DNA from: Asterias amurensis
Taxonomy: Eukaryota; Echinodermata; Asteroidea; Forcipulatida; Asteriidae
Assembly (NCBI RefSeq): GCF_032118995.1
Contig: NC_092659.1
Location: 13,262,177-13,326,176, forward strand
Direction of reading: 5' to 3'
Length of the DNA stretch: 64,000 nucleotides
The notes beneath the pieces were generated by a model. The model worked only from the letters and a program-made list of their open reading frames with translations, was not told the DNA's origin and did no database searches. Of this stretch, positions 43,522-64,000 are shown in pieces; the stretch's first letter is position 1, and each line of letters begins with the position of its first letter. The position numbers and the translations under genes were made by a program.

Positions 43522-46500
43522 GATCAACATACCTCTGAAGGTACATGAATGGTGAAGTTGTCGTATGCTTCCATAAGATCTTCTAGTTTGTACTGCTGTA
43601 AGACCACAAAGCCTTCAAGGTTATGGCTAGCCTTCCTGGTGCAGTCTTGGCAGTGTACCTCGTACTTACGATCCTTCTCCGTCGTGAATAGAATATTAAA
43701 CACCTCCACCTGAAATACAGACAAGGGATCAAACAAGTTAGACCTCTGGAAGAACATCAATCTTGGTGCAAAGTCTACAAGAAATACTCCAGTATCCTAT
43801 CTACATTTTCAAAGATGATTTCAGAACGTTTCAAGATTGTAAAGGTAGGGTCATAGATGGATAAACACCAACAATTACTGACCAAAAAAACTGACTTTGT
43901 GAGCAGCTGTTGACCGTGAACTATTTTGAGAAAGGATTCACTATGAAATAATATGGTTATGGAAAATTTTTCACTCCAAAACATTATGTTATCAAGAATC
44001 AAGAATTTATGCATGAAATGTTTCTCAGATTTCTGAGGGTAAGTGTCAGTTTGCGAATGCTGCGGCCAGAGATGTGGTTGGTACCAATTGTCACTTGCTA
44101 AATATGGATGGATTTGACATTCTGTTTTCTCAGCAAGTAGACACTGTATTCAGCTAAATCTTTCACATTTGAATTTTATTGTATCTTTCTTTACATTTTC
44201 CCCCATAAATCAGCATTAAATTGACAAAAAGTAATCTACAACCCTACCTTTATCTCATCATAAGTTGACGCAGTATTGCGCCGTTTCATTCTTGGCTCAC
44301 CTGTGCACCTATACACGATTTCAAACATCACAATCCTACATGATTCTAAAGATCAAGACGCTACAAGATGCGTTCCTTACTGATTATAAACTCACCTCAC
44401 AGTTGACGCAGTAATGCGCCGTTTCATTCTTGGCTCTGCCGTGCCAGTGCACCTCCACCCCGATCTCATGAAGGAAATCTAACGTCATCTGAGTCTGCTT
44501 CAGTGTCCTCAGTAAGCAGTATCTAGACAAAATAACGACGAGTGTAACACATAAGTGATTATGGGATTTGAGGCATTGCATGGTGAGTAGTGCTGGGCGA
44601 ATAGTGAAATTTTGTTATTCGGATACCGCTGGCCAACTATCCGAAATTAACCGGATATTCGAATGAGGGCGCTGTTCGTTTGTGAATGGGATTTTATGGG
44701 CGGATTGATATTAGTTTTGGACCAGTGTCACTCGGTTCATTCATAAAAATGACCGGATCTAATTTTAAGATGGCGACTTGCTTTTTCTTTTGATCGTAAT
44801 TGACTCTACGTGAAGGAAAACTTTTGTAATCTTTGAACAAATTACTTCAGAAATGTCATCGTTTTATCTCTTCAAGGAGGTGAGCATAGTTAAATACTTA
44901 ATATATGCTTTTTTATGCTGTTTTAATAGAAGTTTCATACGGATTCCGACAAAACAATTCATGTCAGTTGTCGACCGACGTCCGCGGATATTCGGATATT
45001 AAAGAATATCCGGTTTCTCGGTTGTAATTACAGAATTATCCGGTTTGTAAATAGGTATTTGGGCCCTATGAGGATATCCGGTTAAGAAAAAAAAGGCATT
45101 CGCGGTTACGGATAGGAAAACCTATTCGCCATTAACCGGATATTCGAATTATTCGCCCAGGCCTAATGGTGAGGTACAAATACATATTTGGTTTGCGGTA
45201 ACACCATGCGTGTATCTACTTGCCAGGTATATTATGTTCTTTTAGAACTTGTTATGCTTTATATTCTACGACCGCAGAGTAGACTTTTTAGAATTTGGGA
45301 GACATGAGTGATTGTTTTAAATGTTGCTCAATATCCCCTCCCCTTGAGACCCTTTCTGAATTAGTTCAGTTTATTACCTCTATGGCACAAACATCTAAGT
45401 ACAATGTGGTGCAAAAGTTAACCCTGCTGCATGCCCACTAAATGGGGACCTTTGATCACACTAAATACATGAATATTACAGGGAAATAAATACAGACTGA
45501 TAGCCCTGGAACTTCATTTTGAGAGGACAAGGCCATTTTCAATTTAAGGGCACTTCCACTGGAGAATCTTAAAGTCTATGGGAAACTTCTATAAGGGCAC
45601 CAAGGCCAAGACTAGGGGCAACAGAGCCTCTGTGCCCTCAATGTAATCCCAGGCCTGGACTGATAATTTTATTAGCTGCGGGCATTTGGGGATCAGGTTC
45701 GTTCAGCGGTTTCTTTCCCTGCCTTTCACCTATGTGGATTCTGGTTCGAATCTCATTTCAGACCAAAGCCTTTCTTGTGGATTAGGTTTTCAGTCCCTAC
45801 CTGATTGCATTGGTTTCCGCCACTTCTGAAATATGAAATTTCTCTTAATTTCCTATTCATCCCAGTTCTCTGTTGTTGGATGTGAAATGAAATAAATACA
45901 TAAATAAATAACCAAGTGACTAGACTTACTTGATCATCTCAAAGAGTCTAGGCTCTGTGATCTTGATATGTCTGGCCATGTTCCATGAGAGATGGACCAT
46001 GGGAACAATGGACTTATATCCCTGCAGCTTGTTCCACTCGTAGCGCTCCACTGATAACTTGTACTGATTGTTGATCAGCGGCCCTACATTCCACGCTATG
46101 TTATTGCACCATCCCTAAACAAAAAACAAAAAAAACAATTACACATCCATTACACATCCATTTAGATTAATCGGTTGTACATTAGTTACGGTGGGCGGTG
46201 CTGGGTGGGCCTGCCCGGGGTCGATTTCACAAAGAGTTAGGACTAGTCCTAACTTAGGACTAGTCCTAGGAGATATACAAATTGCATGGATAGTCCTAAG
46301 TTAGGACGAGTAACTGGTCCTTACTCGAGATAAGGCTAGTCCTAACTGTGAAATTCACACCAGGACTCGCAATTTTGCACAGCACTCTGAGCAGAATACA
46401 CGGTGCTGCCTGGCACAGATTTCCCGTAGTGCTCAGATTACTTACAAAATATTGTCCACTGTGCTCTGATCTGAGACACAGCTAATGATAAGGAGTATCA

Positions 46501-49500
46501 AATGTCACAGAGAAAGAACAGAGTCAAAAGGCCATTCAACTTGTTGCATGGCCCCTAGATGAACAGTTTGGATACCTGGCATTATTCCTTAAAGCACTTC
46601 AGCAATGATTGCCCCATAATCAAACATGCATAATTTTGTTCATCTGCTCACCCTTGGTGAAAATGAATTTATAGCCCACAACTATCTAGCTGCAAACCTG
46701 AAAGGGAGCATCTCAAAAGTTACATAGAATGGTAGAAAAGTTTCTAATTGGTTTTGGTTGAGGATTCTAGCTGGCATGCTTGAAATGCAGGTCCGTCTTA
46801 TGACTCAACAATTTGCTTAAAGCTACAAATGTATATTGAAAGCTTTTTCAAGAAACTATTTATCTCAATATTCTGGATCAGAAGTGGGTTACCAGTGAGT
46901 TTTGCTTCAACGCTGAAGTGTTACACCTCGGCTCAAGAATACCACTACTCATTAAACACAAATCATCATATCCAGACACACTGTCAAGGAAATTCCTCTT
47001 CATCAAAGTGATTTCAATGAAGTAGGATTTTAACCTTTGCAGGGTGGAAGCATAACTAAGAGATGTTTGCAGTAACACCATGTGAATACCTCTTTTGAGA
47101 AGTGTTGGTTCTAAAATAAAATAAAAATGGTGGTTGACAACTCCTAAAGAGTCAGTAACGACTCCTTAAGAACCTTTAGCGAGTCGTCATCCACCGGTTC
47201 TTTTCAAAACCAACACGATTCACCAGAGATATTTACATGGTGTTATCGCAAACCTCTCTTAACGATTTCATATAAACTCCTCCATGTATGGATTGCTCTT
47301 TGAGCAGAAATGTCCGCTTATGAAATTGGCCCTTCTGCAATATTTTTAAAGGCACTGGACACTATTGTTAGTTACTCAAAATAATGGTTAGCTTTAAAAC
47401 TTACTTGGTAACGAGCAATGGAGAGCTGTTGATAGTATAAAACATTGTGAGAAACAGCTCCCCCTGAATTAACATAGTTTTTGAGAAAGAGGTAATTTCT
47501 CATTCAAATAATAAAAGACTTAAGCTGAAGCCTTTTATTATGCTTCTAAAAGCAAAGTAATGCAACAAGGTTGTGTTTTCTTTCATTATTCTCTCGCAAA
47601 GTTTATGACAAATTTTCACAGTCTTAGACCAGTCTTCTCACTTGTGTTGTATTTCAACATATGCACAAAACAACAAACCTGTGAAAATTTGAACTCAATT
47701 GGTCTTCGAAGTTGCGAAATAATAATGGAAGAAAAAACAACCTTGTCACACAAAGTTGTGTGCTTTCGGATGCTTGATTTCGAGACCTCAAAATCTAATT
47801 CTGAGGTCTCAAAATCAAATTCAAATATTTTAGTGAAAAATTACTTCTTTCTCAAAAACTACTTAAATTCAGAGGGAGTCGTTTCTCACAATGTTTTATT
47901 GTATCAACAGCTCTCCATTGATCAATAACATATTTAAAGTTGTTATGCTAACAGTGATTTAAAAAAGTGTCCAGTGCCTCTAAAAGGATTGTTCACATTG
48001 ACTTGAGCCATATTCTAATGTACATGTACATGATGTACTTACCACAGCCTGTACCCAATGCACAGCCCCAGCATTAACCCATACTAAGTCTCCTGGTCTC
48101 TGGATGAATCTATACACAGGTACATTCTCTTCATATAAATCCTCCAATACTGGCCACCATGACCCTTTCAAGAAGTTGATGTTATATCTGTTGAAGAAAT
48201 ACACAAAAACTTGGTAATTTGACATATTTTCCATTGAGTTCCTTTTTCTGTTTCAATTCAATACTTTACAGACATTCAACTTTAAAAATAAATAAATAAC
48301 AAGGAAAAGGCTAGCATACATCTTTGATCATAGTTTTACATTTTTTGATGTTTCTTTTTCTTAGCTCAGTATAAACCACAGGGGAAACTGACTGGGTAAA
48401 TTTGATAAATGATTTTTGGGGTTAAACAAAGCATGGACTAGTTGGATCTGACCAAAGACCTCCTGATTAACATGTTGGCGCTCAGTTTTTTTTCCGTTTT
48501 GTATTTGAAAAGAGAGGGAAAAACCTGTTAGCAGCAAAGTTGCCTATGTCACATTGTTATTCACCGGTTTTCAACATTTGAATGAGATTGCTCTTGTCCT
48601 TAAAGGAACACGTTGCCTTGGATCGGTCGAGTTGGTCTTTAAAAAGCGTTTGTAACCGTTTTGTATAAAATGCATATGGGTAGAAAGATGTTGTAAAAGT
48701 AGAATACAATGATCCACACAAACATGCCTCGAAATTGCGTGGTTTTCATTTTACTTTGTCGACTAACACGTCGGCCATTTATGGGGGTCAAAATTTTGAC
48801 TTCCATAAATGGCCGACCATGTTAGTTCGCACAGTAGAAGGAAAACCACGCAATTTCGAGGAAAACTTGTGTGGATCATTGTATTCTACTTTTAAAACAT
48901 CTTTCCAACCATATGCATTTTATAAAAAACGGTTACAAATGCTTTTGTTTTGACCAACTCGTCCGATCCAAGGCAACGTGTTCCTTTAATAGGATTTGAG
49001 ATTCAGGATTGAGGATTTGAAGAATGTGTAGATTCCTGAAAATGGATTGAGGGGCCTAGGTTCTCCCTCCAACAGGAACCTCACATATTCAGGGACTCGG
49101 TGCATCACCAGGAATACATCAATACAGATTTATAACCCCAACAGATTTATTTCTCCCCTTAGTGACTGATTCTCGCCTTTCATTTATATTTGGAGTCTCA
49201 AGGAAGTTTGAAGAACCGGAAAAACCGGTACAATTGTCAAGTGTGTTTCAGGATACTTGCTAAACTTGTGCCCTTAAAAAACATAAAATCATTTTATAAT
49301 CAGTCCCAGAGTGTCTTGTGTTTTGGATCAGAAGTGGGTTACCAGTGAGTTTTGCTTCAACGCTGAAGTGTTTCACCTCGGCTCAAGAATACCACTACTC
49401 ATTAAACACAAATCATCATATCCAGACACACTGCCCATGGCAAAAAAACTTGCTAAAGTATTGACAATACTTGTTCAGCAAAACTAGGTTACCATTCACA

Positions 49501-52500
49501 CTACCATAGTTACCATTGCTGCAACTGGTACCCTTCTCACTTCTTTACTTAGCAAGTACATTTGCTAAGCAGATTTTTCTGCATAACAGCTTTGTGTTGA
49601 TTGAAATATTGCATAAGACCATCTAAATTCCATCACTACATCCAACTTCAAGCTGGGGGGGGGGGGGTGAGTAGTGCAATATCTGATAAGTGGTCCCATT
49701 TTCATAGAGCTGCTTAAAGGCAGTGGACACTATTGGTAAATACTCAATATAATTATTAGCGTAAAACCTTACTTGGTAGCGAGTAATGGGGAACTGTTCA
49801 TAGTATAGAACATTGTGAGAAACGGCTCCCTCTGAAGTGACGTAGTTTTCGAGAAAGAAGTAATTTTCCATGAATTTGATTTCGAGACCTCAGAATTTTG
49901 AGGTCTCCGATATCAAATATCTGAAAGCACACAACTTCGTGTGATAAGGGCGTTTTTTCTTTCAGTATTATCTCGCAACTTTAACGACCAATTGAGCTCA
50001 AATTTTCACGGGTTTGTTATTTTATGCATATGTTGAGATACACCAAGTGAGAAGACTGGTCTTTGACTATTACCAATAGTGCCCAGTTCTTTTAAGCAGA
50101 AAATACCGTTTAAACAATTTCTGCTTAGCAAAAATTAAGCAGGATACCAGTCACATATAGCTTATATGAGAGAGTATTTTGGCTGGTAACCTTATTCTGG
50201 TTAGCTTAATTTTATTGTGCTTAAGCAGCTCTATTAACTTTGGCCCAGAACATGCAACATGTACTCACCTCTCAGTTAGACTGCAGATGGCGCCCCAGTA
50301 CGCATTGGGCACTGCAAACCACTCACAGTCTCCCGGTCCGATGTTAACATTGACTGAACACATGTTGTTGTTCTCTTGATGCCCTACAATCAACAATCAA
50401 CAATAACTCAGATTAAGAGAGAAAACACAAAGAAGATTTTCAGATAATTAGGAGTATGACTGACAAGTTAACCACTGAATGTTTGTTTTAAAGGTCACCA
50501 CAAATGCATGTTATTTGTTCAGAGGAAAAACATTGAAACTAAATTCCTTGATACGTACGTTATCACTATGGTAAATTAATTTACTGACAGGCAATGAGTT
50601 TTTGTGTATACTGTTAAGAAGAAATTTACATTAAAACGAGCACAGGCTTTGAACTTCGCTCTTGAAGGGGTACGGCAAATTCCCTCTGGAAAGGGGCACC
50701 GCTATGAAGAAAATGTAAATTTGTATTGGAACTTTGCACAGGGCACCGTGGCAACTGCTGTGGGTGCCAAAGGTTGTTTCGAGGCCTGAAGGGTACCTCA
50801 AAGTAACTCAAGGATGAACCATGGAAAACCTAAAAAAACACATGCAGGTACCCTCCATAACTAGAGGTTGTACCCTTCATAACTAGAGGTTGTACCCTCC
50901 ATAACTAGAGGTTGTACCCTCCATAACTAGAGGTTGTTCCCTCCATAACTAGAGGTTGTACCCTCCATAACTAGAGGTTGTACCCTCCATAACTAGAGGT
51001 TGTACCCTCCATAACTAGAGGTTGTACCCTCCATAACTAGAGGTTGTACCCTTCATAACTAGAGGTTGTACCCTCCATAACTAGAGGTTGTTACCCTCCA
51101 TAACTAGAGGTTGTTACCCTCCATAACTAGAGGTTGTACCCTCCATAACTAGAGGTTGTACCCTCCATAACTAGAGGTTGTACCCTCCATAACTAGAGGT
51201 TGTACCCTCCATAACTAGAGGTTGTACCCTCCATAACTAGAGGTTGTACCCTCCATAACTAGAGGTTGTACCCTGGAAAATCCAGGAGAACCCAGCCAAA
51301 CCTCACAGCTAACCCATCTGTAACTCAAAATTGAACCATGGATAACCCCTGGAAAACCTTTAAGTGCAATATACCTTGTTTAATTTTGCATTCCTCACTT
51401 AGCATTGACTGCCCATGAAGTTAACCATAAGCCTTTTTGAGGTATGGCGGACGTGATATGAGTGTACTGTTTGGTTTTTGTGTATACACACAAATTTACC
51501 CCAACCTTATAGTGTTGTAACATTGTGTCCGCCATATCTCAAAAAGGCTTATGGGGACAAGATGCAGTTACACGTTTTTTTGTGTCCACGTTTCACACCC
51601 AATACGACATTGCGTCTCGCAACTCATTGCAATTGTCAGTAATAGGCAGGTTTGAAATTCTGGATCAGAAGTGGGTTACCAGTGAGTTTTGCTTCAACGC
51701 TGAAGTGTTACACCTCGGCTCAAGAATACCACTACTCATTAAACACAAATCATCATATCCAGAAAATAAATAAAGCAAAGATGGGGTGAGTGGGTTACTG
51801 TATTTAATTCATTCGGTTTTGGACTCGCAAGACCAAAACTAATTGTCAACTCATTTGTCAAAACTATAGCATTCCAATCAACACATCTCAAGGGAAGTTT
51901 TCTCCCAATAATAATCTTTGTACCATGTCAGTTATGCGTGAATCTGTAAACACTAAGTCTTTAAACCATATCATAGTTGGGACTTGCTATTGATGTTCTA
52001 TTGTTGTTCTTTTCTGAAGAATTCCTACGTTGAACAAAGAAAAAAACATTATGCAGACCTTCATTCCATTGTGTTTAAGTCCCCACACCAGTGTGTGTGC
52101 CTACCCATCCATATCTAACCCATGTTGCGCACACTCAATTATCAACTAGAAATACAAAGTAATGTTCACACTTGCTTACCAGGCGTTCTGCTTCCCGGTA
52201 CCTTCATATAGAGCTGGACTGTATTCATTCCCAGTATGGAGTGACCCACATGACTCAGGATGTTACCTGGTGAAACGATGCGTGTAAATGATGGCAGCTT
52301 CGTCAACTCATGTAACTGCTTCTTCCATCTACAGGCAAACCATACATTCAATAAGATTTAAAGCATTGACGAAGATGCTCACTTAATAGGGACCTTGGCA
52401 AAATTAGTCCAGGACAACCAGCGGATAAGTACCATACGGGACAAGGTTTTTTACTTGCTGTTAATTCACCTTGTTTGAAATCGGGTGTTTTGGAGAAAAC

Positions 52501-55500
52501 GTGGGAGGGAAAACCTGCAGGGATCTCTACATCTCTACATTACTACTCTTAATTATATACAACAGCCTTCAAGCCGTTTAGATCACTCAAAAACCACTAG
52601 TTTGTTCGTACTACATTTAAACAGCCAGTGGAAAGAAGTGAGATGAATCTTCTCATAACACTATGTCAAATCCTTACTTGTGTACACGTAGGTTTTTTCT
52701 CATTTAATTTCTGGCCATCTGATCAGGAAAAACAAATTTTGGTCCAGTGAACATTCTGAGCTACAAGCCCTTCCCTGTGGTCTTGCAGACATCTCCTCCC
52801 AACTTCGATCCCTGGAGAGTGTCCAACATCTCTCAAAGCATTTTTGAAATGTGGACTCCCTTTTTTCTTAAAGTACAGTGTCTTAAGCTAGACATCATTG
52901 ATGTACACGTACTGACAATCCAAATTAAATTTGACGTCAACAAAAAAGGGTATATGGAAAAAGTACTCACTTCCGCTCATCGGACAGATCAACATTGGTT
53001 CCAAATTTGAGCATTTTAAATTCTCGACCGCCTCCTTCCCGTAGAGTTGTAGTCGTCGGCGCTCCGTTTGTCTTCTTTTTCCTGTTAAAACCACAAAACC
53101 CAAGTTGTTAGGTACTTCATGTAAGTAGCTGAGTGATGTAACACACACTGTCAAAATTTTCTTGATTTTTGATGAAAGACACATTTACGCATATTTTTCT
53201 GCCAAAGTGATCACAGAAATTCCCTGTTCTATTAGCGATCATTCTTTACGGCAAGTTTGATATTTCGGGATAAGGACATCTGAGGAGTGTTTGGCACTTT
53301 ACTAGACTTGTGAACAAGTCGTTTTAGCCTATACACTTAGTAGCTCCCCCCCCCCTCTGGCCACGACAAAAGACTGCTCTCTCACAAGATCTCTTTAGCC
53401 CTGTTCACAAATTCTTCCTGTGTAATGCCTTTGCAGTATTTTTACCCAAAGGTTTCCCACAGAAAAAAATTGTTTCACCTGGAGTTACCAATTGTTTAAT
53501 TTTGAATTTCTCCCTAACTTCAGTCTGTCAGTAATCATTTTAAAAAATATCTTCACATTGTAAAAACCTTACTCCAAAGTTTTCCGAGGTAAAACGAGGT
53601 AACATAACGATTCACTGTGTGCAACCGCTCATTGTTCCGTAGAACCCTCTCCAACTTTCTTTCTAAAATGCATAACTTATCCCCTACACAAACCCCAAGT
53701 AATTCATACCTTTTCGCTGAGAATGGGTCGTCTGAATTAAGTCTGGAGTTCTTCTCGGCTTCCTCCTGTACACAGAAAAATTCAAATAAATGCACTATTT
53801 ATGCAAATTGTTTAGTTACCTTTCAACTATTTTGAAAAATAAAAGTTTTATCTAGATCAGAAGTGGGTTACCAGTGAGTTTTGCTTCAACGCTGAAGTGT
53901 TACACCTCGGCTCAAGAATACCACTACTCATTAAACACAAATCATCATATCCAGAAAACATCCTGAAAGTAAACATAACCTATCCCATGCCTTATGCCAA
54001 GTATGATATTTGAGACTCTACAAAATTAAAAAAGCCAAAAAAGCTTGTCGTATGAACAATCTGTGACTGGTACAGCCAAACATTTACTGGCTATAGCAAG
54101 AAAACTGTACTTGCTTGCAAATAAAATGTCAGCTTTTTTTCTGACATAATTAACCAATATCTTAAATTATAAACCAATTTGAACAAGGTGGTAAGCTTGG
54201 GCGATATCAAATTATTTTATTCACGATATATCGCCGATAACATACCGCGATATTCGATATAATCGCGATTAATTAAATTTGACATCATCAGTCTTCAAAC
54301 TCCCAGTGAAAGTTGTAGAAGAGACAGTCATAGCATAAGAGAGGTAATATAATGACCTATTCTTCTGGTTTTACTCCAAACCTATGGGGTGCAAGATGTC
54401 TCAGCTAGGAAATACATCGCGATATATCGCGATACATCGTTATTTCGATTAAAACCAAATCGAACCGATATCAAAATCGTTTCCAAATTAATATCGCGAT
54501 ATACGATAATATCATGATATCGCCCAAGCTTACAAGGTGGATCACTCAGAAGGCTTTTTTTTTTTAGCCCAATTTAATGATATCTTACCCTAAGGCTTTC
54601 CTGGAACGATGAGGCTTGATACTGAGCGTATCTTGTGATAGTAGAGAAGGATCTACTACTCTCACATTTCCAAACCTTCTTCAAACCGGCCTGATCCCAA
54701 TTCTCATCTGGTGGTTGTTGTCTCTGTAAAGGCAAATCAGAAAATGTTAGAATAAGCAAATCTACGATTTGATCAATACATGACACATATAGACCTTTCT
54801 ATTGCAACATCACAGCCCCAAGTTATTGCAACCTAGGATGGAAAGCCATCAAAGCAAAGTATAAACAGACAGCTACAGTTTGTAACAATGTCACACAAAT
54901 ATTCATATATAGGGTTGGATTTGTAGGAAACAAAGCAACCAGTCATGGGAGGTATCTTATTTAACTGAAAGTTTGCAGGAAATATTGAATTTGGGCACAA
55001 CATCTGTTGCTAACATTTGGCCATCCAAGCCAACCGGTGCAGATTCTTTATCAACAAAAGATAGGTCAAATTCAGACACATCCTTAGTTGAAACATCAAA
55101 AACAGACACTTTGTAAAATGAAATCATTGCACTCGGCAGTCCCAAGCGGTCTATTTACATAAAAATGTTCTGGATCAGAAGTGGGTTACCAGTGAGTTTT
55201 GCTTCAACGCTAAAGTGTTACACCTCGGCTCAAGAATACCACTACTCATTAAACACAAATCATCATATCCAGACTTGCTGCATATGTTATTCACCCCACT
55301 AATGCTATACAAGCAGCATAATAATAACAAAAATAGCAGTTTTAAAAACAATTTCTTCCCTTGTTTCTATCTTCATTATTTTTAAGGAAAGTTTTAAAAG
55401 CAAAGCCAAGTCTTACTGCTTTAAATGCAGTGGACACTATTGGTAAACGGCTCCCTCTGAAGTGATGTAGTTTTCGAGAAAAAAAAGGAATTTTCCACGA

Positions 55501-58500
55501 ATTTGATTTCATGACCTCAGACTTAGAAATTGAGGTCTCGAAATAAAGCATCTGAAAGCACACAACTTTGCGTGACAAGGGTGTTTTTCTTTCATAGTTA
55601 TCTTGGAACTTGAACAACCAATTTAGCTCAAATTTTCAAAGGTTTGTTATTTTATGCATGTGTTGAGATACACCAAGTGAGAAGACTGGTCTTTGAAAAG
55701 TACCAAAGGTGTCTAGTGTCTTTAAGAATCCTGGTACATTACTCAAGGGAGCTAGGGTAAGAGTGCTAGGGTAAGAGTACCAGGCCTAAACTAGTACAAA
55801 GGCCATGGCCTCTGTTGCCCGCCTTGGTGCCCCTTCAAAACTTTCCCATAGGTTTAAAGATTTCCCAGTGGAAGTGCCCTTTTCAAAATGAAAATGGCCA
55901 GGGCCCCTCAAAGATGAAAGTCCAGGCCTGGAGTAAAGCTTACTCAAAATAAAATCTGCAGTTTTTTCTATTATACCTGTGTTCTGACTTCCACCGGATG
56001 ATCACCGTGCGTTTCTACAAGCGTCTTTGTTGAGAAGAGGCCCAGATCCAACTTGAGGGCAGCAGCCAGGCCACGGATTACCGTGATTGGCTGATTGTGA
56101 GATTTGCAGTACTCTGCTAGGGCTGGCGAATAAGCATCATCTTTCGTCTCCACCTGTCAACATAAACACCACACAGGGCTCGATAAAAACACACAATATA
56201 TTGCAGAACAAAATATAAAATAGTAACTTCCCTTGGGTAAACCAAGTTCAAATCTCCTGGCCAAGTACACATCTCTTGGGTCTACCCTGAAAGTATCTGG
56301 TTGGTTTGTTCCAGGCATGGTATTTGTCCCTTAGAAAAAAATTAGGAAAAAATGACTGTCTATTGTCAAGTAAGACCTACATGAACATACAATATGGGAT
56401 TTTATAAAAATTGGGGCTATAAAAAAACATTTTTGCTGATTTTTTTTTTGAGAGCCAATTAGAATCAGAATTGGTCTGAAGTACATATAGTAGAATGCTT
56501 GGTTGTTCTGAACATTTCGACTAGTTCCCTAGTCACTATCAGGAGACTGTAGTACGCACCAGCCACAACAATGAATGTTTCATCTGGTACACTGTTATTA
56601 CCAAGCTCAGTAACTTTTAGCAAAGTCTTTAAAGGCAGTAGACACTATTGGTAATTACTCAAAATAATTATTAGCACAAAACCTTACTTGGTAACAAGTA
56701 ATGGGGAGAGGTTGATGGTATAAAACATTGTGAGAAACAGCTCCTTCTGAAGTGATGTAGTTTTCGAGAAAGAAGTAATTTTCCACGAATTTGATTTCAA
56801 GACCTCAAGTTTAGTATTTGAGGTCTCGAAATCAAGCATCTGAAAGCACACAATGTTGTGTGACAAGGTGTTTTTTTCTTTTCTTTTATTATTATCTCGC
56901 AACTTCGACAACCAATTTAGCTCAAATTTTCACAGGTTTGTTATTGTACAGGTATGCATATGTTGAGATATGCATATATGTTGAGATACACCAAGTGAGA
57001 AGACTGGTCTTTAAAAATTACCAATAGTGTCCAGGGTCTTTAAAGGGACACACCGGCCGAATTGGGCTGTTTGGGCTACAAAATAGACTAAGATATGACT
57101 TCAACGGTCTTACAGGAATGAAGAAGAACAGTCCTTAAAAAAAATCATCAAATTTAGCCGTTTTTGAGCATTTTAAGACAAAAACGCAGGTCGCGTGATT
57201 GTTCTAACCAAAAAGTGGTACAAACAATCACATGAACTTCCGGGCTAGTTTTACTTTCAGCCGTCTATCGAAACTTACATGTACTTAACCAAATTTAAAT
57301 CTTTTTTTTTTACAAAATTATTAACGCATAACTGACGAAAAAGATCATGTATTCAAATTATCGCTACAAAATGTAAATAATGGTGAAAAATCTAACGTAA
57401 GATTCACATTCAAAGAGTCCGTGTAACGGAAGCTTGTTATATGGCCGCTTTGGTTTTTTTAAATCATTTTTCGCTAAGTACGTGACATTTTGATGATTTT
57501 TTTTACAGCAACCATCTATAAAAACATTATTTATGATTCTACACCCCTAAATTGCGTAAACGGTGAGCCGGTGTGTCCCTTTAAGGGCAGAAATCTGCTG
57601 TAAGCAAGGCAATGAAATTACGCCCAGATTGGTTTACTTTTACTTTCAGACAACATTTGTAAACCCTATCAATGTTGTCCTCAACAAAACACTTTAGACA
57701 GCCATTGTTTTACTTGAAATGAATTGCTGCACTCGGCAGTCCCAATATTTATCATAATGTTCTAGATCAGACGTGGGTCACCAGTGAGTTTTGCTTCAAC
57801 GCTGAAGTGTTACACCTCGGCTCAAGAATACCACTACTCATTAAACACAAATCATCATGTCCAGAGTTGCTGCTTATGTCCATTACTCCACTTATGCTCA
57901 CAACTTGGAGTCAAAATGTCATTAACAAATGCACGACCCACTTTGTATTCCCAGAGCTCTCAAGCATGACAAACAACCTAAGAAATAACATGTTATCAAG
58001 GTCAAGGGCTGACCTATTTATGATTCAGGCCTTTTAACACCTTTTAGCAAGAATTCGTCTTATTTTCTAAAAAGGAAAAAATATCATGCCTGACACTGCT
58101 CACTGCAGTCTGTAAAACAAACAACAATCTAAAAAAGAAGACTAAATTTAGCTCCATAATTCAAAAACCCTGACCTGAATAAATGTAGGTCTCCTGATGG
58201 CTCAAATATTTGTACAGTCAAGTGTAGCAACTTGCTACTGTATATTTACTCATATTTAACCTGACCTCTTGAGCTCTTTTAAGGACGCCACTATCTTTGA
58301 TGGCGGACATGTTTTAAAAATATTAACACTTTTACATGGATTTTATGACATTCCATGGTGAGGTATCAATGTAGATTAGTTTCATTTTGTTCATTTATAA
58401 ACCTGAACCTGAACCGGAGTAGATTTTGGAATTTGGGGATACCACATAGTTTTAAAAAGAACTGTCTGGCATGTTAATTACTATCTGGGTGGTAGGAAAC

Positions 58501-61500
58501 AGGCCAGAACTACTACTTTTACTAAGTGAATCAAGGAGACTTCTCGTTATTAACTTAAATGCAGCAGAGTGAGTTTTTAATTATTACTCTCGTAACTTTC
58601 AGGTTTTAAAATGCCAATTCAAAATAAACTTTTGACGGCTTTGCTCCTTTTGAATTTCTACTCACATAAACACTAGGCGTTGCTGGGTTGAGCTGGTCTT
58701 TTGGAAGGGGTGGGTACGGGGGCTCTGGGGGAGCTGGTGGGGGCATCTTCTCCAGTAGGATGCTGTTGTTCCTCAGGCCATTCTTGCCCAGCTTCCGGCA
58801 CGCCTCTAGGACCTTCGCTGAGCTGGAGTAGATTGAGAGGCCAGATGGAGACAGACAGGGGGAAGTTGAATGGCCACCTGGACCCCCCGCGTTAGATGTG
58901 TTTATTGAGAGGTGCTGTAACAAGAATGAATAGAATTAAAATAAATCTGTACTAGGAAGTAGTTGCATCCTTTCATTAAAGGAACACGTTGCCTTGGATC
59001 GGACGAGTTGGTCTTTGAAAATCGGTTGTAACCGTTTGCTCAGAAAGATATTTTAAAAGTAGAATATAATGATCCACACAAGTATCACTAGAAATTGCGT
59101 GGTTTTCCTTTTACCTCGTTGACTAACACGGTCGGCCATTTATGGGAGTCAAATTTTTGACTACCATAAATGGCCGACAGTGTTAGTTTGCAAAGTAAAA
59201 TGAAAACCACGCAATTTTGAGGCAAATGTGTGTGGATCATTGTATTCTACTTTTAAAACATCTTTCTAACCATATGTATTTTATAACAAACGGTTACGAA
59301 CGCTTTTCAAATACCAACTCGACCGATCCAAGGCAACGTGTTCCTTTAAGCCTTGTGAAAAAGCACAATAAAAGGATACCGATAACTTAACTTTTTCTTC
59401 TAGACTAAAGTTGAGGTGCTGAAATCTTCTAAACACTTCGCTCGTTCAAACTTTATCACAAATTTGTTTACATACCTGATCATATTGACCAGTTCCCATT
59501 CCATTAACATGATTCTGTACACAGGTGTCTAACCCACTACTCCTTCTAAGAGACGGGATACCAGACGGCGATCCAATGCCAGATATAGAGTTTAAACCAA
59601 ACTCTTTGGGTGCATTCTCTAACTGTGACAAGCGGCTTGCTACACTACCGGATGAGGTAGTGCTTTGCGACCCCCCATGAATGGGAGAGGAGGACATAGA
59701 GTTTGAGACAGGGCTACTCAGACCCGAAATGACATTGTTCAGTCCATCCAGTGAGGAGTGGTGATGGACAGAGCTTGGGGGGTGCATACCCGATGAACCA
59801 AGCCCAGCAGTTCGGTGCTCTGGAGTCTTCGGCTTGCTGTCGACGTTGCCAGAGTGGAATGTTTGCGAGAGGATGCTCTCATATGAGTTGATGCTGGAGG
59901 TGACTGGCGGTGGAGTCTTGAAGATCCCACTGCTGCCACCGTCTTGCTTGATGGAGCTAATTGAATCATGCACTGTCCCTGTCCCCATGCCATGTGGCAT
60001 AGTACTGAAGAATGCATTGCCTGCGCTACTGTGTTGTCTTAAACCTGCAGGGTTCTCACCAGACAAGGCATTGTTAACACTGGGGGAGCTAGCCCCACCT
60101 ATAAAGGAGGTCCCACTGCTTTTGCTTGTGGCAGTGTCTGTGTGGGAGAGCTGCGCCAGCATGGAATCAGCTATTTCCTGAGGGGACATGAGACTTGGGG
60201 CCTCCACGCCACCAGTCCTGGATTTGAACTCAGCCAGTTTCTGATTCATGTCCACATTTTGTGGGGCAACCACATTTGGTGCCGGGAAGTCCATGGTCTT
60301 CTGGAGTGGGGTCTGGGAGTGCCCAGGGCTGCCAGCAGACCCCGGTGGAGTTACAATCCTCTTTGGCACATGAAGAGGGGAGGCTGTACCAGAGCGACTC
60401 TGCAGTGAGACCCCGGGTACAGCCTGATTATTGAATAACTCCTGGAGTTTCGGTGTGCTGGCAGGGGAAGGGTGCCGTGCAAAGTTCACTCCTTGCGCAT
60501 GTGACACTGCACTGGACACAACAATGCCTAGGTTTCCAAATCCGGCTACACTGGTGACGGCATTTCCTGAGGGTACAAATGCTCCACCTGTGCACACCAC
60601 CTGCCCTCCCCCGTTGGCTGTTGTGACGACACTCCCGCCTGGTGCTACCATATTCCTTCCTGCAGATGTCCGACTTAGTAAATCAAAGTTCATGTTTCCG
60701 TTTGAAGTAGGTAGCGCGTCCGTTGGGGTTCCTACCGTGGCAGCCCGGGACTGAGTGTTCGAGGGACTTGGATCCCCAAGTTGGTTTAAACTAGGAAGGC
60801 TTCCAAGTTGGGGTTGTCCACCATTTGCACCGTTTGTTGGGAGTTGCTGGTGCCCACCTTGCTGCTGCTGTTGCTGCTGCTGCATCTGTTGATGCATTTT
60901 CAACATCTGGGAGGAAACAAAGTAAGACAAAAAATTGCTAAGGTGAAAGAGATACTGAAAAATGGCTTCAGCGAATGGCTTCTTGGTCAGGTACCCTGTA
61001 TTAACATCATACCGTACATTGATTATTGTAGCAAGAAAAGGTAGTCGGTCTGCATTCCCTCCAAGTCTAAGTTAAGCAACTTGGGGCCTTTTCCAAGCCT
61101 AGGCTCACAGCTAAGTCTCTGCCATTTGTAGCAGTGTGCATGTTGTGCTCCAACATTAAACAGAGTCTGGGACATAATCCATGGTTTGGAAAAGGCCGCT
61201 GGTTTTGATCCTAGATGGTTACTTAGTGATAAGTATCTGCCACATGGGGTATGGATACTGACTTCATCTCCAGTTAGAAAACTTCCCCTGATGGTTTCAA
61301 AAGAAAGGCGTATCTAGTAAACAATCCCCACTCCCCCCCCCCTCCCCACCCGTAAAAAATAAAATACAAAAATCACAACCATCCATATGGATATTAAAGA
61401 AATGGTGGTATCCAATATTAGAAAACATGGAATCTATGAAAATATGAGTTAAGTTCAAAACGTGAAGACTGAATGTGTTAAGTTCAAAACGTGAAGACTG

Positions 61501-63607
61501 AATGTGTTCAGTATGAAACGTGAAGTCAGAATAGTGATATATTTCTACCTGCTGATGGTGTTGCTGCATGAGCCACAGACTGTGCTGCAGATGCTGCATG
61601 ACGACTGTCTGCTCTGGGTTCAGGTTGGCCTGGTTCTGCTGCAACTGCTGCAACAATGCCACCTGCTGTGGCGTAAGGTAGAACAGCGGCGGTGAGGGCG
61701 CCTGCTGCTGTTGAGAAGGTGCCGGCGGTGTAGGGGCTGGCGCAGGCTGTTGTTGCTGTTGCTGTGGCGGCTGGTTGGGTGCACTGCTGGTCTGCTGATT
61801 GAGAACCTGCTGTTGCTGCTGTTGCTGCAGCAGCTGCTGTTGTTGCTGCTGTATACTCAGGAGCTCAGCTACTGAGGTGGAAGACTGTTGCCATACACGG
61901 AAAGAAACACACACACAGTGAGAAACTTTATTTTGTAATTTTGACAAGAACATAACATGCTAAAAAAAAAAAAGTGACATATGGCGAAACTTTACAAGAA
62001 TAAAACCCCCAGCTAGCTACAACCAAGTCATTTGTTCTATTTGTTAATGTTAAATCTAAACAGCCCATGCTCAAAATCAATCTATGGGCAATTCAATAGT
62101 TACATTACATTGACAGCACATAAAAGATATCCAGGCCCCGTTTCACGTCATTACCTACCACAGAATGTTGAGGATGTAAGCACAAATACAAGTGTAGAAT
62201 TGCGTGGTGAACAGCATTATGTAATGAAGGATGCCCCTAAACATGCTGAATTTGTTTCCAGGGGGGACTGTCATCAAGAGCAAAGCAGGCCTTTGGCTGT
62301 ACATGGAATTATGACTTCTGACCCAGTTACTGCACGCACCGCTGGCCGTCACATTACCATCGCCATTGATGTCATCATATTGTAACATGACGACAATCAC
62401 ATGCGCATGCAGTACCTTGGTTAAAGTTCATAGTTCCATGTACAGCCACAAGTCTGCTTTGATCATGACAACACCTATCCTTTATACCTAATCTTACCTA
62501 TCCTTTATATTGTTCAACATCAAAAAATGGTATCAATAATGGTACAACCAAGTATTCGGTTAATGTAACAAGCGCAACGCACTCTTGGGGCAATGGAGCA
62601 AAAATTCTCATTCCTGTGTTTAAAAATCTCTATTAAAGATGGTGACAGCAAAAACCCATGATGGCTTTATAAAAAAACAATCTTACTTTTAGTCTTTGAA
62701 TTTTCTATTGACTCAAAACACTTGTACCAAAAAAGTAAATAAATAAATAAAGTAAAATCAACAGACTCAAGAGAGCATGAACCTTGAACCTCTTGTTGGA
62801 ACCCTGGCTTCAGCTCCAGGCTCCAGGCTCTGTTCAAACCCATGCAAAATACACACTGCTCCAAAGTTGATACCAGTGGGACAGGAGATTCTACAGACAA
62901 TGTGACCTATGTTTACATTTAAACCGCCCTCTGTTGACAAAACACTGTATATGTCATGTTTCGCCGGGCAAAAAGACGCGTAGTCATGATAAGATTGCAT
63001 ACTCTTTCTAGCCGTCTGCCAAAACACAATGGTTTTGCCCGGCGGTATGCGTGTGAATCATGTTATGGTTTTCGAGTGACGTCAGAGGTCACATCGTCTA
63101 TACCCCAGGAGATTCGTCCCCCTATTATGGCAATTTGTGTATAAACTTCTTCTAATAGCGCCCTCTTTTGAATCCTCCTCCTTTCGTTCACGTTAATTTA
63201 CCATAGGGGGGACAGAATCTCTGGGGAAAACATTTCCCCAGGACACCGAGACCAAGGCAGAAAAAAAGCCAAAGCCAAAAAAAACTTAGTTATTAAAATT
63301 ACCTTTTTTTCAAATGATTTACCAGCAAAGCAAGGATCATAAAAACTAACTGACTAACAGGGGAACTAACCTTCTTCTTTTGTGAAGCAGAGTTTTTTCG
63401 GCGCTTGGGTGCATTGCCGGGCTGAGGGGTGGATGAGGTGGTACTCTGCCCACCCATTGAGACGGGCGTCTGGAGGCAATTGGGTGCAACAGCAGCAGCA
63501 GCAGTAGCAGCGGTATTGGGCACAGTGAGTTGATTGGTTAGTTGGTTTGGGTAGGGAGGGGGAGGCATGGCTTTGGTGACAGCCACTGAGGGTGGAATCA
63601 TGCGAGC
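42707..63607 (-). CDS. KDM6A: KDM6/UTX-type H3K27 demethylase, C-terminal 1218 residues (partial)
   Basis: Fifteen exons, all GT-AG with compatible phases, total 3657 nt. Family role: Fe(II)/2-oxoglutarate JmjC enzyme removing methyl groups from H3K27me2/3 within MLL3/4 (COMPASS-like) complexes in the nucleus. Residues here 1-668 are low-complexity (Ser/Pro/Gln-rich, poly-Q). About 700-751 is the conserved [20 protein letters not shown] and [12 protein letters not shown] block. About 752-910 precedes the JmjC domain. The JmjC iron ligands are H962, E964 and H1042 (HQEN and AVHWV); zinc ligands C1147, C1150, C1171 and C1174 (YCVNC, HCQDC). The N-terminal TPR repeats are missing because those exons lie right of the window. 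Invertebrates usually have one UTX gene; the symbol could equally be Utx or KDM6B-like, but the sequence is closer to what I know of UTX. Six introns each host a C/D snoRNA candidate. Confidence 0.93.
43312..43521 (+). mobile_element. 3' end of a CR1/L2-like LINE with ATTG tail
   Basis: [13 protein letters not shown] and [14 protein letters not shown] followed by TGA (43411-43413) match the C-terminus of LINE ORF2 proteins. The 3' UTR GGCGCTATATAAACGG leads into an (ATTG)n tail at about 43479-43520. 5'-truncated, in a KDM6 intron, antisense to the gene. Confidence 0.8.
43533..43709 (-). CDS. KDM6A: KDM6 exon, second zinc cysteine pair
   Basis: Acceptor TTTCAG, donor GAG|GTATGT. Carries [43 protein letters not shown]. 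The apparent stop after VPSEVC is intronic. Confidence 0.94.
44396..44522 (-). CDS. KDM6A: KDM6 exon, first zinc cysteine pair
   Basis: Acceptor GTCTAG, donor GAG|GTGAGT. Carries [30 protein letters not shown]; the two Cys of YCVNC are zinc ligands. Confidence 0.94.
44588..45165. mobile_element. hAT-like MITE, 578 bp
   Basis: Inverted ends TAGTGCTGGGCGAATA and TATTCGCCCAGGCCTA, flanked by an exact 8-bp duplication ATGGTGAG (44580-44587 and 45166-45173). Eight-bp target duplication is the hAT hallmark. Confidence 0.87.
45510..45665. repeat. Dispersed repeat (CCAGGCCTGG ends), copy 1
   Basis: Shares AAGGGCACTTCCACTGG and GGCACCAAGGC blocks, in inverse orientation, with 55740-55932. Confidence 0.6.
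45930..46114 (-). CDS. KDM6A: KDM6 exon, JmjC C-terminal part
   Basis: Acceptor TTTAG, donor AA|GTAAGT. Carries [44 protein letters not shown] and FEMI. Confidence 0.94.
46221..46366. mobile_element. Short palindromic MITE (TTAGGACTAGTCC)
   Basis: TCGATTTCACAAAGAGTTAGG at the left and CCTAACTGTGAAATTCACA at the right, with repeated GGACTAGTCCTA palindromes inside. Confidence 0.72.
46872..46976 (-). ncRNA. C/D box snoRNA candidate, copy 6
   Basis: 105 nt in the KDM6 intron between exons 48043-48187 and 45930-46114, same strand as the host. Read on the - strand: terminal stem TCTGGAT paired with ATCCAGA, box C ATGATGA at 46963-46969, box D CTGA at 46878-46881. The internal GAGTAGTGGTATT can pair with AATACCACTACTC, which I recall as conserved in LSU rRNA, followed by a weak D'-like TTGA. 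Confidence 0.82.
47346..47984. mobile_element. MITE family A, compound copy
   Basis: A left-half copy (TTAA-AGGCACTGGACACTATTG) runs into a second, inverse copy (CTTCTCACTTG-TGTATTTCAAC ... GTGTCCAGTGCC). Looks like two overlapping insertions. Confidence 0.7.
48043..48187 (-). CDS. KDM6A: KDM6 exon, JmjC third iron ligand H1042
   Basis: Acceptor CAACAG, donor GTG|GTAAGT. Carries [40 protein letters not shown] and VQAV. Confidence 0.94.
48600..48989. mobile_element. MITE family C, copy 5
   Basis: TTAA at both borders. Near-identical to copy 1 at 241-628, including the same central GGGGGTCAAAATTTTGACT variant block. Confidence 0.9.
49322..49426 (-). ncRNA. C/D box snoRNA candidate, copy 5
   Basis: 105 nt in the intron between exons 50269-50383 and 48043-48187. 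Box C at 49413-49419, box D at 49328-49331. The stem's 3' strand is ATCCAAA, giving one mismatch against TCTGGAT. Confidence 0.78.
49690..50245. mobile_element. MITE family E, copy 4, split by family A MITE
   Basis: CATAGAGCTGCTTAA ends at the left of the insertion and TTAAGCAGAAAATA resumes at its right, closing with CTTAAGCAGCTCTAT at about 50220-50234. The uninterrupted site is seen at 33520-33540. Confidence 0.75.
49714..50095. mobile_element. MITE family A, copy 8 (nested in family E)
   Basis: TTAA-AGGCAGTGGACAC to the inverse end, TTAA duplicated on both sides of the insertion. Confidence 0.88.
50269..50383 (-). CDS. KDM6A: KDM6 exon, JmjC iron ligands H962/E964
   Basis: Acceptor TTGTAG, donor AG|GTGAGT. 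Carries [20 protein letters not shown] and [17 protein letters not shown]. His and Glu of HQE are the first two Fe(II) ligands. Confidence 0.94.
50849..51274. repeat. 22-bp minisatellite, 19 copies
   Basis: TACCCTCCATAACTAGAGGTTG repeated head to tail with very few substitutions and two 1-bp insertions. In a KDM6 intron. Confidence 0.95.
51426..51553. mobile_element. Short inverted-repeat element
   Basis: AGCCTTTTTGAGGTATGGCG near the left end is mirrored by CGCCATATCTCAAAAAGGCT; spacer about 70 bp. Confidence 0.7.
51659..51763 (-). ncRNA. C/D box snoRNA candidate, copy 4
   Basis: 105 nt in the intron between exons 52180-52328 and 50269-50383. Box C at 51750-51756, box D at 51665-51668, perfect TCTGGAT/ATCCAGA stem. 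It sits next to a SINE-like-free, MITE-rich segment but is not part of any MITE family. Confidence 0.82.
52180..52328 (-). CDS. KDM6A: KDM6 exon, JmjC start (residues 911-961)
   Basis: Acceptor CTGTAG, donor G|GTAAGC. Carries [40 protein letters not shown] and SRTPG. Confidence 0.94.
52971..53081 (-). CDS. KDM6A: KDM6 exon (residues 874-911)
   Basis: Acceptor TTAACAG, donor AA|GTGAGT. The correct frame reads [20 protein letters not shown] then [17 protein letters not shown] (family KFGTNIDLSD). The longer open frame across it is a shadow. Confidence 0.92.
53710..53765 (-). CDS. KDM6A: KDM6 short exon (residues 856-874)
   Basis: Acceptor GTACAG, donor AG|GTATGA. Encodes [19 protein letters not shown], split in the last Arg codon; the acidic/Ser linker of the family. 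Confidence 0.87.
53851..53955 (-). ncRNA. C/D box snoRNA candidate, copy 3
   Basis: 105 nt in the intron between exons 54589-54723 and 53710-53765; box D lies about 85 nt upstream of the next acceptor, a spacing common for intronic C/D snoRNAs. Box C at 53942-53948, box D at 53857-53860. The stem 3' strand is ATCTAGA, replacing a G-C by a G-U pair. Confidence 0.82.
54192..54532. mobile_element. hAT-like MITE, 341 bp
   Basis: Perfect ends TAAGCTTGGGCGATATCA and its inverse, flanked by an exact 8-bp duplication CAAGGTGG (54184-54191 and 54533-54540). Confidence 0.9.
54589..54723 (-). CDS. KDM6A: KDM6 exon (residues 811-855)
   Basis: Acceptor TTTACAG, donor AGG|GTAAGA. Carries [24 protein letters not shown] and [14 protein letters not shown]. 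Confidence 0.93.
55169..55273 (-). ncRNA. C/D box snoRNA candidate, copy 2
   Basis: 105 nt in the intron between exons 55977-56153 and 54589-54723. Box C at 55260-55266, box D at 55175-55178, perfect terminal stem. Flanks (GCACTCGGCAGTCCCAA and TTGCTGC) are shared with copy 1. Confidence 0.82.
55421..55725. mobile_element. MITE family A, copy 9 (internal deletion)
   Basis: TTAAATGCAGTGGACACTATT jumps straight to GGCTCCCTCTGAAG, so one arm is shortened; right end GTGTCTAGTGTCTTTAA. Confidence 0.8.
55740..55932. repeat. Dispersed repeat (CCAGGCCTGG ends), copy 2
   Basis: Inverse of 45510-45665, with CCCAGTGGAAGTGCCCTTTT and GCCTTGGTGCC. Confidence 0.6.
55977..56153 (-). CDS. KDM6A: KDM6 exon (residues 752-810)
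   Basis: Acceptor TTGACAG, donor CAG|GTATAA. Carries [28 protein letters not shown] and HPVEVRTQ, as in UTX/JMJD3. Confidence 0.93.
56629..57043. mobile_element. MITE family A, copy 10
   Basis: TTAA-AGGCAGTAGACACTATTG to the inverse end; its right TTAA (57040-57043) is also the left TTAA of the adjoining family D element. Confidence 0.87.
57040..57584. mobile_element. MITE family D, full-length copy
   Basis: TTAA-AGGGACACACCGGC at the left and GCCGGTGTGTCCCTTTAA at the right; 545 bp, no coding. A truncated copy is at 1230-1526. Confidence 0.85.
57761..57865 (-). ncRNA. C/D box snoRNA candidate, copy 1
   Basis: 105 nt in the intron between exons 58666-58914 and 55977-56153. Box C at 57852-57858, box D at 57767-57770. 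Slightly diverged; the stem retains pairing through a G-U (TCTGGA with TCTAGA). Confidence 0.8.
58666..58914 (-). CDS. KDM6A: KDM6 exon (residues 669-751)
   Basis: Acceptor TTACAG, donor TAT|GTGAGT. Carries [40 protein letters not shown] and NPATPSVY, a block well conserved in vertebrate UTX. Confidence 0.92.
58976..59349. mobile_element. MITE family C, copy 6
   Basis: TTAA at both borders, GGAACACGTTGCCTTGGATC and inverse; lies between two KDM6 exons. Confidence 0.88.
59476..60906 (-). CDS. KDM6A: KDM6 large exon (residues 192-668)
   Basis: 1431 nt uninterrupted, phase 0 both sides, acceptor CTCCCAG, donor CAG|GTATGT. Encodes a disordered Ser/Gly/Pro/Asn-rich central region starting [12 protein letters not shown]. 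ORFs on the other strand here are shadows. Confidence 0.88.
61549..61884 (-). CDS. KDM6A: KDM6 exon (residues 80-191), Gln-rich
   Basis: Acceptor GCAACAG, donor CAG|GTAGAA. Poly-Q runs, a [11 protein letters not shown] stretch, then [14 protein letters not shown] and [12 protein letters not shown]. Phase 0 both sides. The acceptor is the least certain boundary. Confidence 0.78.
61885..63370 (-). other. KDM6 intron, no feature recognised
   Basis: The phase-0 junctions on both sides fit direct splicing. No additional exon, snoRNA copy or named MITE is seen. Confidence 0.5.
63371..63607 (-). CDS. KDM6A: KDM6 exon (window residues 1-79)
   Basis: Acceptor TCTGCAG, donor AAG|GTTAGT. Encodes [20 protein letters not shown], an Ala/Thr-rich stretch and a basic [12 protein letters not shown] end. 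Phase 0 both sides. Confidence 0.8.
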
Positions 63608-64000
63608 CTGCAGAAAAAGTTACACAGGGGGAAAAGAACAACTTTTGAGTTGAATTCACACTTAACAGGGTTTAGAATTCCTCAACATTAGACAAGTTAT
63701 AGATAAGCCCCTTCTTTTCAAATTCGGTTCATACTTCCTGTGAATGCAAATGCGATGCGTATGTTATCTTCGCAAATTCGCAACGAACAATTCGCAAGGA
63801 AAACAGAGTTGTGATGTCAAATTCACGCCAAATTCGCATCGCATTCGCATTTGCATTTGTAGCAAGTATGAAGTCTTTAAGTCTATCATAGCATTGATAA
63901 TATGAACGACATCAACTACTCTGTCCAACACGACTCAAACAAGAAAACGTTTTGATTATTCGTTTCTGACTTAAACCGGGTTACATCAGGGAAGCTATTC
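63608..64000 (-). other. KDM6 intron to window edge
   Basis: No coding sequence. Short inverse matches of ATTCGCA-type words occur at about 63720-63870 and may be the core of another palindromic element. Confidence 0.4.

Follow-up and report, generated by a model that had tools for sequence, protein, structure and literature searches.

A box C/D snoRNA-like unit repeated in introns of KDM6 in the sea star Asterias amurensis, with a candidate guide for the U75 site of 28S rRNA

The spread of small nucleolar RNAs (snoRNAs) within the same host gene (cis-duplication) and into a new host gene (trans-duplication) is described for chicken, nematodes, platypus and sponges in excerpts of three reports (PMC2653536, PMC2832892, PMC3412847), and by these excerpts a snoRNA with copies spread over separate introns of its host is already amply documented. 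In the excerpt on chicken, GGgCD57 occupies four introns of one host and GGgCD61 is present in five copies in two hosts (PMC2653536). Here we analyse 64,000 nucleotides (nt) of the sea star Asterias amurensis (GCF_032118995.1, contig NC_092659.1, positions 13,262,177 to 13,326,176), referred to as the window, in which introns of a KDM6A/UTX-like gene (KDM6) carry copies of a 105-nt unit that is most likely a box C/D snoRNA. We consider it probable that a single intron-encoded C/D snoRNA was duplicated at the DNA level until it occupied nine KDM6 introns and an RPB1 intron, and that it would guide methylation of 28S ribosomal RNA (rRNA) at the site served by U75. A literature search covering titles and the starts of abstracts found neither an earlier report of a snoRNA array in KDM6A/UTX introns nor a survey of C/D snoRNA host genes in echinoderms.

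Another relevant system is U75 (SNORD75) itself. Chicken U75 (GGgCD60) is listed, in the part of the paper at hand, with a 13-nt antisense element at the D' box for 28S-C-3514 (PMC2653536). In a human SNORD75 mutant clone methylation of C4032 was about 42% lower by one method, and by another it was not abolished, according to an excerpt of that study (PMC6856654).

Copies of the unit and their host genes

The preliminary description of the window had reported six units of exactly 105 nt, located in six different introns of KDM6 in host orientation and absent from the rest of the window. Direct reading bore out all six, each on the minus strand, and exon mapping with KDM6A structures and the annotated Asterias amurensis protein agreed on the host, the orientation and the six separate introns. 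A 29-nt core, allowing up to three mismatches, matched six times in the window, always on the minus strand (0.00 matches expected, 100 shuffles). Six is however not the size of the array, which extends to three further KDM6 introns beyond the window end and one intron of RPB1. The Asterias amurensis assembly (491.5 Mb, 23 contigs) was searched at a threshold of E <= 0.001, and the counts are lower bounds. At least ten copies were found, all of them on the contig of the window (C12) and all in host sense. The host gene and the copies are as follows.

43533..64000, minus strand, continuing past the window end: KDM6A/UTX-like host gene (linker, JmjC, KDM6_C-hel and GATA-like exons)
46872..46976, minus strand: candidate C/D snoRNA copy in KDM6 intron g/h, at a distance of 757 nt to the 3' splice site
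49322..49426, minus strand: copy in KDM6 intron f/g, with one terminal-stem pair broken (C2-A104)
51659..51763, minus strand: copy in KDM6 intron e/f, identical in sequence to the 46872 copy
53851..53955, minus strand: copy in KDM6 intron c/c2, at a distance of 85 nt to the 3' splice site
55169..55273, minus strand: copy in KDM6 intron b/c
57761..57865, minus strand: copy in KDM6 intron a/b, the most diverged of the six, with 2 changes in the D-side spacer
66233, 69360 and 70399 (extrapolated window coordinates), host sense: three KDM6 copies beyond the window end
C12:7928828-7928932, host sense: copy in an RPB1 intron, 5.4 Mb from the window

The translated exons of the host gene match the domains KDM6_C-hel, KDM6_GATAL and JmjC, and its TPR exons lie beyond the window end. 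Compared with the PDB, the host exons correspond to human KDM6A (3avr, E 2.3e-179); the host query is also 98% identical over 73% of its length to the annotated 'lysine-specific demethylase 6A-like isoform X4 [Asterias amurensis]'. KDM6 proteins of Patiria miniata, Acanthaster planci and Strongylocentrotus are listed as well. The second host was identified by the exons flanking the copy, whose best PDB match is RPB1, the largest subunit of RNA polymerase II (E 1.7e-113). Counted on the letters, the 3' end of this copy stands 136 nt ahead of the next exon.

For the placement within introns, residues 190 onwards of the annotated KDM6A-like protein were mapped onto the window and the adjoining upstream sequence (residues 1-189 are unplaced), with two short exons (residues 385-414 and 1226-1268) placed by eye. 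The intron count covers 18 KDM6 introns, from the exon of residues 190-222 to the last exon. Nine of these 18 carry one copy each and none carries two, so that an intronic position in host sense with at most one copy per intron is found in nine KDM6 introns and in one RPB1 intron. The KDM6 copies lie 85, 122, 144, 352, 445, 757, 1134, 1275 and 1607 nt ahead of the 3' splice site, where some of the intron borders behind these distances, and behind the chance figure given below, were set by eye within tens of bases. Four of the ten copies sit 85-144 nt ahead of a 3' splice site.

Two kinds of repeats are also present in these introns. The KDM6 intron with the 51659 copy also contains a 22-bp minisatellite (50848-51274, 19.3 copies, 98% matches). 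A diverged interspersed repeat starting about TTAAAGGCAGTGGACACTATTGG was seen at 47346, 49714, 55421 and 56629, in four of the copy-bearing introns, and it stands between a copy and its 3' splice site only at 56629 (copy 57761).

An independent pattern made of the C box, a 9-nt core of the guide and the D box was also run over the whole genome. It hit 13 places, which are the same ten copies and three others that, judged by eye, have no stem at the usual position. No second snoRNA for the 28S site discussed below was revealed elsewhere in the genome by this strict pattern, which could miss a diverged paralogue, and diverged relatives of the unit may exist elsewhere in the genome.

Anatomy of the unit and its putative guide

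The commonest form of the unit, read on the minus strand, is TCTGGAT-ATGATGA ... CTGA-TCCAGA. In all six copies of the window box C ATGATGA is preceded by 7 nt and box D CTGA is followed by 6 nt, as noted earlier; among the ten copies both boxes are always present, box C as AUGAUGA in nine and as GUGAUGA in the RPB1 copy. The latter has three private changes, one in box C (GTGATGA, which still conforms to RUGAUGA) and two in the hairpin at nt 53 and 55, and the change at nt 53 breaks the closing pair of that hairpin.

The alignment of the ten copies shows 14 variable columns out of 105. Columns 1, 5, 7, 102 and 104 belong to or stand beside the terminal stem, together with column 8, where box C begins with either A or G. 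Columns 53-56 are the loop and closing pair of the internal hairpin, column 62 is a C to T change in the hairpin stem that keeps a G-U pair, and columns 87, 93 and 94 belong to the spacer ahead of box D. Nucleotides 15-52 are without any variable column (P = 0.0011 under random changes, for a stretch that was chosen after viewing the columns). The terminal stem consists of 6 bp, and 45 of its 48 cells are paired (93.8%) among the eight distinct rows. A closing stem had been claimed for every copy and is indeed found, with the addition that a change in the 49322 copy, passed over in the preliminary description, breaks one of its pairs. The stem change from C to T that was said to keep pairing as G-U in two copies was recovered in those at 53851 and 57761.

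The second structural element is the following.

51699..51719, minus strand: internal hairpin of the 51659 copy (RNA nt 45-65), enclosed by the D'-like box and the C'-like box, with the variable columns 54-56 in its loop

The hairpin has eight pairs, of which 98.4% of the cells are paired. It is flanked by CUUGA (nt 40-44) on one side and by GUUGA (nt 66-70) on the other, which we interpret as D' and C' boxes of degenerate sequence. Directly ahead of the D'-like CUUGA is the putative guide.

51725..51737, minus strand: candidate D' guide of the 51659 copy (RNA nt 27-39), GAGUAGUGGUAUU, exact complement of 28S AAUACCACUACUC

These 13 nucleotides are unchanged in all ten copies. In a comparison with a set of human rRNA and small nuclear RNA (snRNA) letters the best complement by score was GAGUAGUGGUAUU to AAUACCACUACUC, with 13 of 13 Watson-Crick pairs and a score of 26, the next reaching 19; the target letters are thus human 28S, taken here as equal to those of Asterias. 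The same 28S letters are printed in the primer for the human U75 site C4032, as found in an excerpt of that paper (PMC6856654). Against the printed C4032 stretch, which itself was picked by the wider search, a match of 13 nt was reached by one of 20,000 dinucleotide shuffles. A second guide ahead of box D was not found in the same set of rRNA and snRNA letters.

In box C/D snoRNAs a guide of at least 10 nt, complementary to rRNA or snRNA, stands next to D or D', and the methylated nucleotide is the fifth before the D' box. By this rule the mark would fall on the first C of AAUACC for a D' box at nt 40, and on the preceding A for one that starts a base later. The complementarity to a known 28S methylation site adds a putative function that the preliminary description did not propose, and the unit is most likely the functional counterpart of U75/SNORD75 in the sea star. 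We speak of a counterpart rather than of a member of the U75 family because no Rfam family reached its cut-off.

Sequence anatomy, the copies across the genome, their orientation, intron placement and conservation were read directly; from these we infer an RNA product and its action. A single C/D snoRNA gene would have been multiplied by DNA-level duplication within KDM6, with one further copy in an RPB1 intron. After splicing of the KDM6 pre-mRNA each intron would undergo debranching and trimming, and the C/D snoRNP proteins, which are fibrillarin, Nop56/58 and 15.5K, would bind to boxes C and D where the 6-bp stem keeps these together, with a stable RNA of about 100 nt as the product. The D' guide (nt 27-39) would then pair over 13 nt with 28S rRNA and direct fibrillarin to a nucleotide in AAUACCACUACUC, probably a C and the counterpart of human C4032, for 2'-O-methylation. 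As each spliced intron gives at most one snoRNA, the multiple copies may sustain the dosage.

Spread of the copies and alternative readings

The mean pairwise identity of the copies is 96.5% within the unit and drops to 52% and 54% in the two 80-nt flanks, as compared to 50% for random pairs. Some letters are nevertheless shared outside the unit by part of the copies, with a maximum of 7 nt ahead of it and of 10 nt behind it. The motif CAGCAAC ahead of the unit is kept in at least 5 of 7 letters in five of the ten copies, and ACATTNTGAT after the unit in at least 6 of its 9 fixed letters in seven of them; both motifs were picked by eye. Since letters just outside the unit are shared, copying took in more than the mature RNA. 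These flanks fit a DNA duplication in which each piece exceeded the RNA by a little, and after which selection acted on the RNA genes or conversion took place among them.

Several observations weigh against a U75-like snoRNA array. One terminal-stem pair is broken in four of the ten copies (3 of 8 distinct rows; three pairs are affected, in one row each, and two copies share a row). No compensatory double changes occur in the terminal stem or the hairpin of the ten copies, and 500 of 500 shuffles were equal, which leaves both without covariation support. The four loop variants of the hairpin fold at -6.0 to -8.3 kcal/mol with only modest z scores of -0.79 to -2.18, and folding of the whole RNA is ordinary (z -1.29, 22 of 200 shuffles as good). 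In a comparison with Rfam, which the preliminary description had suggested, all six weak matches listed for one copy are C/D snoRNA families, and none is at gathering score, the best being snoZ119 with 23.1 bits against a gathering score of 70. In the window as a whole the number of Rfam matches at gathering score is zero, and SNORD75, which has a family in that library, is not among the six matches listed for one copy at E up to 10. An Rfam family cut-off is, on the other side, not a defining feature of the box C/D class. The one-per-intron pattern alone is only suggestive, as nine copies that fall at random with weight on intron length would all land in different introns with a probability of 0.048; the host-sense orientation of all copies is the stronger sign. 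Five of the nine KDM6 copies are 445-1607 nt from the 3' splice site, beyond the spacing that is usual in vertebrates. Two patterns for Asterias 28S, one exact and one with up to three mismatches, gave no matches in the assembly, from which ribosomal DNA is likely absent; scans for eukaryotic rRNA in viral contigs found none. Finally, the degenerate D' and C' boxes leave a margin of one position in the choice of the methylated nucleotide.

Of the alternatives, the best surviving one, which we regard as unlikely, accepts the array of C/D snoRNAs and takes the 13-nt match as a product of chance, so that the RNA would be an orphan or would act via its D-side spacer. That spacer (nt 71-95) is also well conserved, with changes in two of the ten copies only, and the 28S letters compared were human. 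The match is however the top-scoring complement in the set compared, located right ahead of a D'-like box and on a site known to be guided by U75, in chicken via a 13-nt D' element, and the 13 nt of the sea star are invariant in all ten copies.

It is far less likely that the copies are intron duplicates that yield no RNA and are decayed or non-functional. The broken pairs in the terminal stem would agree with decay, but the high identity inside the unit next to near-random flanks does not, since recent duplication alone would leave the flanks alike too, and the changes are not scattered but cluster in or by the terminal stem, in the hairpin loop and in the D-side spacer.

A mobile origin was looked at on the side of the flanks and of the copy number. 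None of the ten copies has a poly(A) tail, and in the 30 nt behind the unit A runs reach 5 letters at most. The longest exact match between the two 40-nt flanks is 4-5 nt in eight of the ten copies, as in shuffles. Copy 57761 has a flank match of 7 nt, a length reached in 40 of 500 shuffles, and copy 66233 one of 9 nt, TTATTATTA, which is a simple repeat (5 of 500 shuffles as long). Many copies throughout the genome in both orientations, named in the preliminary description as what would speak for a short interspersed element (SINE), were looked for; the search at E <= 0.001 gave the ten copies in 491.5 Mb, in one orientation relative to the host. Its view that the pattern is that of intron-encoded snoRNAs and unlike that of mobile elements is therefore supported. 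A SINE or snoRNA-derived retroposon (snoRT) whose copies merely happen to show in KDM6 would account for near-identical units with sharp edges, mostly unrelated flanks and the two longer flank matches, yet it is hardly credible for copies that, in the search at this threshold, are confined to a single contig, with nine of ten in one gene and all in one orientation to the host, that show no tails, no convincing target-site duplications and no dispersal, and whose shared letters beyond the unit edges imply a copied piece that exceeds the mature RNA, and it was rejected.

Neighbouring features and comparison with known systems

Apart from KDM6 the window contains apextrin-like exons (ApeC, PF16977) on the plus strand at 2078-2518, 13352-13846 and 14440-15069. 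The exons at 2078 and 14440 correspond to the second half of ApeC and the one at 13352 to the first half, which probably represents two adjacent genes or sets of exons. Tandem repeats of 12, 18 and 54 bp are found at 27614-27931, where one minus-strand frame is rich in Ala-Lys/Ala-Gln and has no Pfam match.

The candidate sea star snoRNA resembles U75/SNORD75 (human 28S C4032; chicken GGgCD60) in the 28S stretch addressed, in a guide before D', which is 13 nt long in chicken as here, and in being intron-encoded. The hosts differ, as KDM6 and RPB1 are used here and the transcript CR387333 in chicken (GGgCD60). The human host is GAS5, again unlike the sea star. The copy number is also different, with ten copies found in Asterias amurensis and one for U75 in chicken. 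A histone demethylase as a non-ribosomal host is not strange in itself, because ribosome-related genes, which make up over 80% of the snoRNA hosts in medaka, account for only 30% in rhesus monkey, as given in the available part of the source.

It is tempting to go further and to suppose that in sea stars KDM6/UTX is the main high-copy host for a conserved 28S methylation, with RPB1 as the second, and that splicing of one and the same transcript ties the output of an H3K27 demethylase mRNA to the dosage of one rRNA mark, which we offer as a doubtful speculation. If true, chromatin and polymerase genes would be coupled to ribosome modification. The locus is in any case a clean example of snoRNA spread within one gene, where a single assembly displays the likely target along with the copies and the one that escaped to a second host, and it offers a direct test of whether the intronic copy number sets the level of one rRNA methylation.

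With the mammalian snoRTs and snoRTEs the Asterias copies share the multitude of snoRNA copies in divergent surroundings, and they differ by the absence of poly(A), convincing target-site duplication and dispersal. With the cis- and trans-duplicated intronic snoRNAs of vertebrates, nematodes and sponges they have in common that one snoRNA fills multiple introns of its host and has also reached an intron of another gene. Nine introns of one gene exceed the chicken cases in the excerpt available, and what is new here is the KDM6 host, the number of occupied introns in a single gene and the escaped copy in RPB1.

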